From: Alphaproteobacteria bacterium
GTDB lineage: Bacteria > Pseudomonadota > Alphaproteobacteria > Micropepsales > Micropepsaceae
Reading direction: 5' to 3'
NCBI GenBank assembly: GCA_019242395.1
Contig: JAFAVP010000067.1
Span: 1 to 32,346, forward strand
DNA: 32,346 nt
Shown: positions 28,594 through 30,911 of the stretch, piece by piece
How the letters are laid out: each line of letters opens with the position of its first letter
Position numbering within the stretch: the first letter of the stretch is position 1
The notes under the pieces: generated by a model
Databases searched by the model: none
Seen by the model: only the letters and a program-made list of their open reading frames with translations
What the model was told of the DNA's origin: nothing
Translations under genes and position numbers: made by a program

Positions 28594-28670
28594 GCAGTCG
28601 TAGCTCAGCTGGTTAGAGCGCCGGATTGTGGATCCGGAGGTCGGTGGTTCGATCCCACCCGACTGTACCA
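28594..28670 (+). tRNA. tRNA-His, anticodon GTG, CCA encoded
   Basis: A full 77-base cloverleaf can be drawn: acceptor GCAGTCG/CGACTGT, D stem GCTC/GAGC, anticodon stem CCGGA/TCCGG with loop TTGTGGA (anticodon GTG), a 5-base variable loop, T stem GGTGG/CCACC with loop TTCGATC, discriminator A73 and encoded CCA (28668-28670). The top of the acceptor stem is a G1-U72 wobble with A73, rather than a G-1:C73 pair. This is the unusual histidine tRNA type known from Alphaproteobacteria. The base at -1 in the DNA is G, but it cannot pair with A73. Confidence 0.96.
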
Positions 28671-28674
28671 CTCC

Positions 28675-28692
28675 GCGGCAATCAATTGCCGC
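28675..28692 (+). terminator. hairpin terminator after tRNA-His
   Basis: GCGGCAA-TCAA-TTGCCGC is a perfect 7-base-pair stem with a 4-base loop, beginning 5 bases after the tRNA CCA end. A pyrimidine-rich run (CTTCCCTTCCTCT) follows, not a pure T-tract. The stop codon of the convergent DUF2243 gene (28682-28684) lies in the loop. Confidence 0.5.
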
Positions 28693-29194
28693 CTTCCCTT
28701 CCTCTCTGCCGCAGGAACAACAGGCCGAGTGCAATCATAGCCAGGCCCCAAGCCAGAAATCCTGTGTCCCACCAGATCCATTGTCGGCGCGGTGCCAGCT
28801 CGTTGACATGGTGAATGCCCAAAATTTGATGATCCAACAAACCTTCAACGAAATTGAAGATGCCCCACCCCAGAAGCAGGGTTCCGGCAAGCAACTTGCC
28901 TGACCAAAACAGCAGGCCGCGGTGGGCGCGCCGCCAAAGGATGGCAAGTCCAAAGCAGACAAAGAGATAGGTGCTCGCGTGAAAAATTCCGTCCCAGAAG
29001 GTGTTCAGCGCCATGGTTGCAACGCTCGTGGGCGGGCGCCAGCTGGAGAGCATATGATGCCATTGCAGAATCTGGTGCAGCACGATGCCATCGAAGAAAC
29101 CCCCGAGACCCAATCCAAAAAGAATGCCGGCAGCTGTCGGGAAATCATGTTGCCGTGCGGCTGCTTCTTCCCCCGCCATTGGGGCCGCCTTCAT
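28682..29194 (-). CDS. DUF2243 membrane protein with duplicated His-rich motif
   Basis: A 170-residue protein of the DUF2243 family with about four membrane helices and no assigned function. Two copies of one motif are visible: F-F-D-G-I-V-L-H-Q-I-L-Q-W-H-H at residues 33-47 and F-V-E-G-L-L-D-H-Q-I-L-G-I-H-H at 115-129. A partial third, WDGIFH, is at 67-72. The paired HQIL-x2-HH units suggest an internal twofold repeat able to bind metal or heme at the membrane; this is inference. ATG 29194 has AGGAGG 6 bases upstream and overlaps the FNT-gene stop as ATGA. The open frame continues far upstream but only in shadow of the FNT gene. Confidence 0.88.
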   Translation of the reverse strand: MKAAPMAGEEAAARQHDFPTAAGILFGLGLGGFFDGIVLHQILQWHHMLSSWRPPTSVATMALNTFWDGIFHASTYLFVCFGLAILWRRAHRGLLFWSGKLLAGTLLLGWGIFNFVEGLLDHQILGIHHVNELAPRRQWIWWDTGFLAWGLAMIALGLLFLRQRGREGGN

Positions 29195-30066
29195 CTCCCA
29201 CCTCCTGATGGGGACTGCGACTTCTCCAACTCGGGGGCGACGGGCGCGTGGTTGAGCAACCCTACCAGAAGCGAGCCTCCTATAGTGTTTCCGATCAGCG
29301 TCGGCACAAAGAAATCGATGAGATATCGGCCCAGCGAAGTGTGCGCAGTAAGAAAAGCATAAGCCGCATCGGTCGAACCCGCGATGATGTGCGAGAACCT
29401 CCCAAGCGCCACAACGTAAGCGAGGAATACGATGACCAGCAGCCGGATGTTGCTTGAACTCGGCAGCAGCCACACCATCAGCGCGATCAGCCAGCCGGCG
29501 AAAACTGCGCTGAGCAGGACCGTCAAGAACGGCCGCGTCACCGCATCGATACCTATGTCGACGAGCGCGCCCGCCGCCTCTGGCGATAGGGGCTGGCCAT
29601 AGGCGAGCACCGCGGCGAAAATCCAGGTCCCCACGATGTTCGCCACCAGCACGATGGCCCACAACCGCAAACAGGCAAGCACCGCCCCGCCCGTTCTTCG
29701 CGTTAGAGCTGGCAAGACGGCGGATAAGGTACTCTCGGTGAAGAGCTGCTGACGCCCCAATACAACGATTGCAAACCCGACAGTGTATCCGAGGTTTGCA
29801 ATCAGGGGCCGCCACGGTTTGTCGGGCAATGCGACCTGCAGTTCCGCCTGCGTTACAAAAGAGAACCCCATGGAGAGGCCTGCTGCCAGGCCAGACCACC
29901 AGATTGCGTTGGCGCTGCGGGCGAGCTGGCGTTCGCCTTCTTCGCGAACGATTTCGTGAATGACTTCGGCGGGAAGGGTGGCGTTTTCATGCGCCTTCTT
30001 TTTGTCGGCTTCGGACAGATGCGGTGAGCCGGCGCCTGCTTCGGTATGATCGATGTCGGCCGTCAT
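29191..30066 (-). CDS. formate/nitrite transporter (FNT) family channel, YfdC-like
   Basis: A 291-residue inner-membrane protein of the FNT family (pentameric channels for formate, nitrite, hydrosulfide or similar small anions), closest in feel to the YfdC branch. A hydrophilic N-terminal segment of about 55 residues with a charged helix (EVIHEIVREEGERQLARS) precedes about six hydrophobic helices. The transported anion cannot be inferred. ATG 30066 overlaps the stop of the upstream hydrolase gene (ATGA, 30063-30066), and its own stop overlaps the DUF2243 start, so all three are translationally coupled. Confidence 0.88.
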   Translation of the reverse strand: MTADIDHTEAGAGSPHLSEADKKKAHENATLPAEVIHEIVREEGERQLARSANAIWWSGLAAGLSMGFSFVTQAELQVALPDKPWRPLIANLGYTVGFAIVVLGRQQLFTESTLSAVLPALTRRTGGAVLACLRLWAIVLVANIVGTWIFAAVLAYGQPLSPEAAGALVDIGIDAVTRPFLTVLLSAVFAGWLIALMVWLLPSSSNIRLLVIVFLAYVVALGRFSHIIAGSTDAAYAFLTAHTSLGRYLIDFFVPTLIGNTIGGSLLVGLLNHAPVAPELEKSQSPSGGGR

Positions 30067-30911
30067 AGGGGAGCGCCGCGCATGCACGCTTCGAGTTCAA
30101 CGGCATCATGGGCACAAATGAGCCGGACTTCGTCTGCATGGCTGAGTGACAGGTCACGCACGCGCTGCTGATTTGAGAGCCGTGCCTTGCGGTCGACTTC
30201 CATCAGCACCTGATACAGGCGCAACCCCGGTGTGCACCTGCGCCGCCTTGCCCTGACTTCGCCACGATAGAAATACGCATCGCCCGCGTGCAGTAGCCAG
30301 CCGTTTTCGCCTTTTACGGCCACGCCGGCGTGTCCCCACGTATGGCCCCGAAGGGGGACGAGCAGTATCTCCGGCGGCAGACCCTTCAGATTCCGCACGC
30401 AATTGAACCCGAACCACCGCTCTCCGTCGCCGCCACGGTAGCGTTCCCAATGATGCACACCGTCGAGTTGCATGGGGCGGTAGCGGCGCCTAGAAACGAA
30501 ACCGTTCCGCCGGCCAAACGCCTCCAGCTCTTGTCCCATCACATGGACCGTCGCGTCCGGGAAGTCCTCGAGGCCGCCCGCGTGGTCGAAATCGAGGTGC
30601 GTCAGCACAATGTGGCGCACGTCCTCCCGGCGGAATCCGAGCGCCTGTATCTGACGAACGGCGGTTTGGTTCTCCTGGAAATGGATATTGAGCATCAACC
30701 GGAAGGCGACGCTCAGGCGGGGATGGGTCCGGTAGACATCGCGCAGACCGTATCCCGTATCCACCAACACCAGGCCTGCATCGGTTTCGAGCAGCAAGCA
30801 ATGGCAAACCAGATGCCCAAGTGGTCCTTTGCTTCTGCCGTTGAAGATGGCGCCGCCGACCGGGCAGTCCGTGCCGCAATTTAAGTGATGGATTCGCGTG
30901 GCGCGCTCCAT
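30063..30911 (-). CDS. metallo-beta-lactamase-fold hydrolase (AHL-lactonase-like)
   Basis: A 282-residue MBL-fold enzyme. Metal ligands are visible: H105-L-D107-F-D109-H110 in THLDFDHAGG, His190 in LRGHTWGH, Asp211 in HAGDAYF and His268 in CAHDAVE. This is the H-x-D-x-D-H variant rather than the commoner H-x-H-x-D-H. The N-terminal HLNCGTDCPVGG and VCHCLLLETDAGLVLVDTG resemble the lactonase branch that includes quorum-quenching AHL lactonases, so lactone hydrolysis is a guess, not an assignment. ATG 30911 with GGAGA nearby is preferred over an in-frame TTG at 30932. First gene of the MBL-FNT-DUF2243 operon. Confidence 0.87.
   Translation of the reverse strand: MERATRIHHLNCGTDCPVGGAIFNGRSKGPLGHLVCHCLLLETDAGLVLVDTGYGLRDVYRTHPRLSVAFRLMLNIHFQENQTAVRQIQALGFRREDVRHIVLTHLDFDHAGGLEDFPDATVHVMGQELEAFGRRNGFVSRRRYRPMQLDGVHHWERYRGGDGERWFGFNCVRNLKGLPPEILLVPLRGHTWGHAGVAVKGENGWLLHAGDAYFYRGEVRARRRRCTPGLRLYQVLMEVDRKARLSNQQRVRDLSLSHADEVRLICAHDAVELEACMRGAPL

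Follow-up and report, generated by a model that had tools for sequence, protein, structure and literature searches.

DUF2243, a small membrane protein family built from a doubled helical hairpin and a putative copper-handling partner of CtaG-type oxidase assembly

The question of what proteins of the DUF2243 family do, and whether their membrane histidines constitute a metal or heme site, is raised by a gene in a 32,346-nucleotide stretch of DNA from an alphaproteobacterium of the Micropepsaceae (assembly GCA_019242395.1, contig JAFAVP010000067.1), the whole of which is referred to below as the window. The product of this gene (P0001) matches PF10002 with 172.8 bits, compared to a gathering cut-off of 25, over profile positions 1–139 of 140, and hmmscan of the protein at E values of up to 1 returned no family besides DUF2243. 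Judged from its sequence, the gene encodes a clear full-length and typical DUF2243 member, with all nine of the conserved residues discussed below, and it is the only DUF2243 match in the genome of the window (Table 1). An earlier note on this sequence had described the family as lacking an assigned function, and a search of the open PMC literature agrees with that description, since no paper mentioning DUF2243 or COG4329 (which we take to be the COG of this family) was found. The relevant part of PMC3879021 merely names PF10002 in a family list.

Table 1. Features of the DUF2243 locus in the window (positions are those of the window; helices are predicted)
Feature	Coordinates	Strand	Basis
DUF2243 gene, 170 aa	28682..29194	-	translation; PF10002 5.5e-51
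FNT (formate/nitrite transporter) family gene, upstream of DUF2243 gene	29191..30087	-	PF01226, 3.7e-48
tRNA-His, 11 bases from DUF2243 gene end	28594..28670	+	
Transmembrane helix 1, residues 20-42, unit 1	29069..29137	-	AlphaFold model m57ddc73b5005
Helix 2, residues 58-91, unit 1	28922..29023	-	AlphaFold model
Transmembrane helix 3, residues 99-124, unit 2	28823..28900	-	AlphaFold model
Transmembrane helix 4, residues 136-162, unit 2	28709..28789	-	AlphaFold model
Unit 1 motif, residues 33-47, D35-x4-H40-x5-H46 then variable H47	29054..29098	-	
Helix-2 motif W67-D68-G-x-x-H72	28979..28996	-	
Unit 2 motif, residues 115-129, E117-x4-H122-x5-H128 then variable H129	28808..28852	-	
D143, helix 4 start, repeat counterpart of D68	28766..28768	-	

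The pattern F-x-(D/E)-G-(I/L)-x2-H-Q-I-L-x2-H-H is matched exactly by residues 33–47 (FFDGIVLHQILQWHH) and 115–129 (FVEGLLDHQILGIHH) of the window protein, and the earlier proposal that this reflects a duplicated two-helix unit was borne out by profile comparison. Profiles of the N-terminal half (residues 18–95) and the C-terminal half (residues 96–168), built from a 74-sequence alignment (A2), were aligned by hhalign over 65 columns with a probability of 96.5, an E value of 9e-10 and 34% identity. The score of 50.0 is far above those of the shuffled controls, the best of which reached 20.6 among 60 column shuffles and 21.2 among 60 shuffles that preserved hydrophobic/polar class. By this comparison, the halves of DUF2243 are true repeats, with the helix 1–helix 2 unit recurring as helix 3–helix 4. 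The repeat alignment pairs D35 with E117, H40 with H122, H46 with H128 and D68 with D143, and leaves H72 with no histidine counterpart in unit 2, where position 147 usually holds L, F, N or I. A partial third copy of the motif had also been suggested at residues 67–72; the residues in question (WDGIFH) are present, but a third copy is ruled out, as helix 2 pairs with helix 4 and W67-D68 aligns to W142-D143.

Conservation was assessed in 61 sequences gathered by HMM or tblastn rather than by motif, which constitute the fair set for this purpose. D35, H40, H46 and D68 were found in 61/61 members, H72 in 60/61, and an acid at position 117 in 61/61 (31 E and 30 D), while H122 and H128 were each present in 60/61 and position 143 was occupied by D in 56 sequences and by N in five. 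The earlier expectation that six histidines and two acids would be invariant therefore stands in part: four of the histidines are invariant or nearly so, but H47 (53/61) and H129 (28/61) vary. Apart from the acid at position 117, the only polar residues to reach 85% conservation in this set were D35, H40, Q41 (58/61), W45 (60/61), H46, H47, D68, H72, H122, H128 and D143. Similar counts were obtained for 80 motif-scan sequences, including H72 in 78/80, E/D117 in 79/80 and D143 in 78/80; these loci were selected on the pattern D[GE]I[VIL][LF]HQ[ILV]L, which renders the conservation of D35, H40, Q41 and L43 among them meaningless. Both the conservation set and the tree described below omit the fragments L018, L165 and L166 and the duplicate regions L115–L128; L019, L020 and L021, which fell below the cut-off and whose frames lacked DUF2243 by the local profile, were excluded from all counts, and a fragment with a stop (L167) was not used. 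On these alignments, the kept set comprises five histidines and four acids, namely D35-H40-H46, D68-H72, E/D117-H122-H128 and D143. The set is partly symmetric, with D-H-H plus D-H in unit 1 and E/D-H-H plus D in unit 2.

The four-helix architecture assumed in the earlier note was reproduced by an AlphaFold2 model based on alignment A2 (pLDDT 91.1, pTM 0.84), in which H46 and H128 lie beyond the predicted helix ends. In 137 of 141 members, the helix 2–3 loop and C-terminus together contain more lysine and arginine than the remaining two loops do; two members are equal and two opposite. Because of this bias and the positions of the helix ends in the model, the helix 1–2 and helix 3–4 ends, together with the nine kept residues, most likely face the periplasm. 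The conservation moment gave permutation p values of 0.35, 0.22, 0.76 and 0.045 for helices 1 to 4, respectively, and on helix 1 the conserved face lies across from D35, which counts against the explanation favoured below.

A Foldseek search of the PDB yielded no solved relative at E ≤0.001, the best value being 0.98. The VIA fold comparison peaked at a Z score of 6.4 (PepTSt), and since all rows fall below 8, they possibly reflect just a common arrangement; ferritin rows reached Foldseek E values of at least 1.8 and VIA Z scores of at most 4.4. Such weak or missing fold matches are no proof of a new fold. A single-sequence match to TM6SF1 in the PDB (E 0.012) was not recovered by either profile search, and PDB profile matches to Peripherin-2 (1.2) and GlyT1 (0.033, 0.089) were taken as chance. 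No homology to Caa3_CtaG (PF09678) was detected by profile comparison (hhalign E 0.12 over 20 columns, with 16 CtaG rows). Neither the motif scan of viral contigs nor tblastn against phage records returned a relative.

The family is widespread. Among 398 genomes of the phylum of the window, 21 DUF2243 matches were found, 18 of them above the cut-off; the family was also present in 7/244 genomes of the order of one member (G046; this sample overlaps the 398-genome draw) and in 32/396 genomes from the phylum to which a Rubrobacteraceae record belongs. By record title, it extends to Cyanobacteria, Bacteroidota, Chloroflexota and others, as well as to halophilic archaea, and it occurs in 160 plasmid records.

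Caa3_CtaG emerged as a partner of DUF2243. According to the relevant sections of two papers, this protein is needed for active caa3 oxidase, tentatively for its CuB centre, and has conserved histidine and aspartate residues, potential metal ligands, located on the outer side (PMC9145763, PMC8239418). One of these sources, a review, presents the role of Caa3_CtaG as tentative and expects additional assembly proteins (PMC9145763). Both are multi-helix inner-membrane proteins with conserved histidines and acids, which in DUF2243 most likely lie on the outer side and in Caa3_CtaG have been proposed as copper ligands there (PMC9145763, PMC8239418). On the other hand, seven helices are predicted for the CtaG of B. 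subtilis (PMC9145763), compared to four in DUF2243, and the motifs differ.

The two genes are neighbours in some clades. Among 51 HMM-collected DUF2243 loci (three further places came without a locus and are outside this count), 12 have a CtaG gene immediately downstream in the same orientation, with a thirteenth, weak case at 2e-5; the same arrangement is found in 2 of 13 plasmid regions, from Streptomyces atratus and Sphingobium AntQ-1. In the 14 clear pairs, the CtaG domain begins 2–118 bases past the DUF2243 frame. On a tree of 112 of the 141 sequences, clustered at 85%, the paired loci form two separate groups, one of which unites the Streptomyces and Sphingobium members, and the pairing label requires three changes compared to a shuffled mean of 11.6, with none of 500 shuffles as low. 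This tree is a quick one; its branches are long and 50 of its 109 inner forks are open, which makes the finer structure unsure. Counted against a general link, a clear CtaG is missing from the nearest 1.5 kb or so at 39 of the 51 HMM-collected loci, and the DUF2243 gene of the window does not adjoin CtaG; among the 80 pattern-scan loci, some of which end at contig ends, no directly adjacent CtaG was found. Oxidase genes occur at a greater distance in a few cases: COX1 and CtaG are located within 9 kb of DUF2243 in three loci (L083, L115 and L116, the latter two from one genus), and COX1 alone in a fourth (L086). In the genome of the window, a COX2 (with cytochrome c)–COX1–CtaG cluster and a further CtaG gene are located on contigs other than that of the window. 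On a Natrinema plasmid, SCO, TlpA and CcdA genes stand just before DUF2243.

The association is also apparent at the level of whole genomes. CtaG was found in 50 of the 398 genomes of the phylum, and the DUF2243 and CtaG counts were taken as one draw, as size, handles and quality tallies agree. CtaG is present in 13/18 genomes with DUF2243 vs 37/380 of the others (p 2e-9). Dropping a short fragment that is counted among the 18 (L018, genome G138) leaves 12/17 (p 2e-8), and removal of the three genomes with adjacent pairs leaves 10/15 vs 37/380 (p 4e-7). Counted by genus, which controls for common descent only in part, the figures are 11/15 vs 24/198, and p is 3e-6 when the genus of the fragment hit is left out. 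CtaG was not found in 5 of the 18 DUF2243 genomes, nor in 5 of 8 further ones, including those of Microseira, a cyanobacterium, and Hymenobacter; these eight include metagenome assemblies that are possibly incomplete, and for two more entries the search covered the plasmid record only. Since several DUF2243 genomes have no CtaG, DUF2243 can probably work without it. Separately, the DUF2243 frame of one locus (L017, genome G308, 1249–1950) leaves the family pattern within helix 4, with H128 replaced by Y, and no CtaG match was found in the same genome, which is suggestive as a single case in which a sequencing error is possible.

The explanation that we favour is that DUF2243 is a small inner-membrane protein derived from a doubled helical hairpin. 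Each hairpin would contribute two acids and two histidines at the same end of its helices, with the first hairpin adding one further histidine, and the nine residues would together make one, probably two-metal, site facing the periplasm. This site may hold or relay copper, or less likely iron, either for heme-copper oxidase assembly along its CtaG branch or in periplasmic copper handling. The parts of this proposal differ in strength. It is likely that the conserved residues form a metal site, and the chances that the role of DUF2243 is linked to CtaG appear evenly balanced. Copper is suggested by the partnership with Caa3_CtaG and by the tentative CuB role of the latter; as the specific metal it is plausible, if somewhat short of an even chance. 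Counted against it, histidine and carboxylate ligands lacking cysteine or methionine are better suited to Fe, Mn, Zn or Cu(II) than to Cu(I). Taken as a whole, the assignment of DUF2243 as a putative copper-handling (less likely iron-handling), periplasm-facing accessory or partner of CtaG-type oxidase assembly is accordingly offered as tentative. A precedent for a four-helix DUF protein acting as an oxidase assembly factor is given by CtaM (DUF420), as described in the relevant part of PMC8239418. The window protein differs in that its hmmscan result contains neither DUF420 nor CtaA.

The route by which copper arrives at the buried CuB site is unsettled, and DUF2243 may bear on it. A bolder version of the proposal, in which hairpin doubling created a new intramembrane two-metal site dedicated to passing copper to or from Caa3_CtaG, as the missing CuB-loading step, is unlikely on the present evidence. 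The family offers an exact candidate ligand set and a clade-limited gene partner in a small and widespread protein, and the doubled hairpin provides a simple natural model for a two-fold metal site that arises via membrane gene duplication.

The alternative that survives best, though it too is unlikely, is that DUF2243 acts by itself as a membrane enzyme whose two-metal centre contains iron, manganese or zinc, apart from oxidase assembly, and that the CtaG pairing is a clade-specific use. Its five histidines and four acids in nearly symmetric array resemble the ligands of two-metal enzymes. Ferritin-like di-metal proteins, which are soluble and carry ExxH motifs on two helices, present an analogy, as their four helices form two hairpins, each with acid and histidine ligands; they differ from DUF2243, whose kept positions contain no ExxH and follow a D/E-x4-H-x5-H arrangement near the membrane face. 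A stand-alone function would also agree with the majority of the examined loci, which have no CtaG neighbour, and with the presence of long variants on plasmids near stress or redox genes (manganese catalase, DUF892, Dsb). It is argued against by the co-occurrence with CtaG that survives the removal of adjacent-pair genomes, and by the neighbourhoods, since none of the 25 commonest of 179 neighbour families recurs in a way that hints at a substrate or an electron donor.

A site that contains histidines and acids and no metal, serving proton transfer, acid–base catalysis on lipid or a structural polar network, is a rather improbable alternative to the metal site. Such a role would fit the weak VIA rows for the intramembrane enzymes ICMT (Z 5.7) and Lit (Z 5.6) and the TM6SF1 match; these Z scores share the sub-8 range of all structural rows, however, and TM6SF1 was lost when profiles were used.

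Somewhat less probable still is a heme protein in which histidines facing each other from the two units, such as H40 and H122, ligate a single b-type heme close to the outer side. The two-fold placement of the histidines in helices 1 and 3, together with many conserved glycines (G27, G29, G31, G109 and G111), is consistent with this arrangement. A precedent exists in CtaA, an oxidase assembly protein which the relevant section of PMC8239418 describes as two near-superimposable four-helix bundles with heme b bound by two conserved histidines, and which thereby exemplifies duplicated helical bundles with paired histidines. In DUF2243, however, the duplicated unit comprises two helices rather than four, the four acid positions, needless for a bis-histidine heme site, vary about as little as the histidines do, and H46 and H128 fall beyond the helix ends. 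A role in metal uptake, efflux or tolerance on its own, which might be suggested by the 160 plasmid records, by a multicopper oxidase gene at a distance of about 7 kb in one plasmid region and by an ArsR/SmtB-type regulator nearby in another, is very unlikely, as four helices with ligands near one face only offer no obvious transmembrane path and no metal ATPase or resistance family recurs among the 25 commonest of the 179 neighbour families.

For the neighbour scan behind these statements, 47 of the 80 motif-scan loci supplied 157 ORFs, of which 149 were covered. They were predicted by a crude longest-ORF caller, so that some are not genes, and no family was represented by more than four members. 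FAD-oxidoreductase neighbours (4/149) were judged, by estimate, to be near background.

In the window itself, the start of the DUF2243 gene and the stop of the FNT gene share four bases (ATGA), and the two genes are possibly co-transcribed. No second FNT gene next to DUF2243 was found by phmmer among the ORFs of the loci collected at that stage. DUF2243 was absent from all 24 other genomes of the same genus that were searched, and FNT matches were present in 2/30 same-genus genomes, merely 24–25% identical. This patchy distribution, together with the position abutting tRNA-His (the three genes span window 28594–30087), suggests that the FNT–DUF2243 segment was probably acquired and inserted at the tRNA. 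A second copy of the tRNA-His end (with up to three mismatches) was not found within the window.

Several settings and variants of DUF2243 may be noted in their own right. A long variant, found in seven loci (L010, L013, L014, L022, L108, L109 and L110), has one more hydrophobic segment and is extended by a C-terminal domain of some 75 residues, which in many cases closes with a G-C-x-x-W-like motif; the extension gave no significant Pfam match in the three members scanned (L022, L108 and L110). Four of the long variants are plasmid-borne and have DUF4142, DsbD, Blh/BigR or manganese catalase genes next to them. In Nostoc-type cyanobacteria (L090, L092, L093), DUF2243 is accompanied by genes encoding a pentapeptide-repeat protein (8 loci), an Rrf2 regulator (8) and a DUF4129 protein (9), identified from one scanned representative per family, and this setting constitutes a separate conserved neighbourhood. 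Finally, one transporter family precedes DUF2243 in Methylobacterium (L029, L030, L031, L032, L034 and L047), and the member from L032, taken as its representative, belongs to the OPT family.
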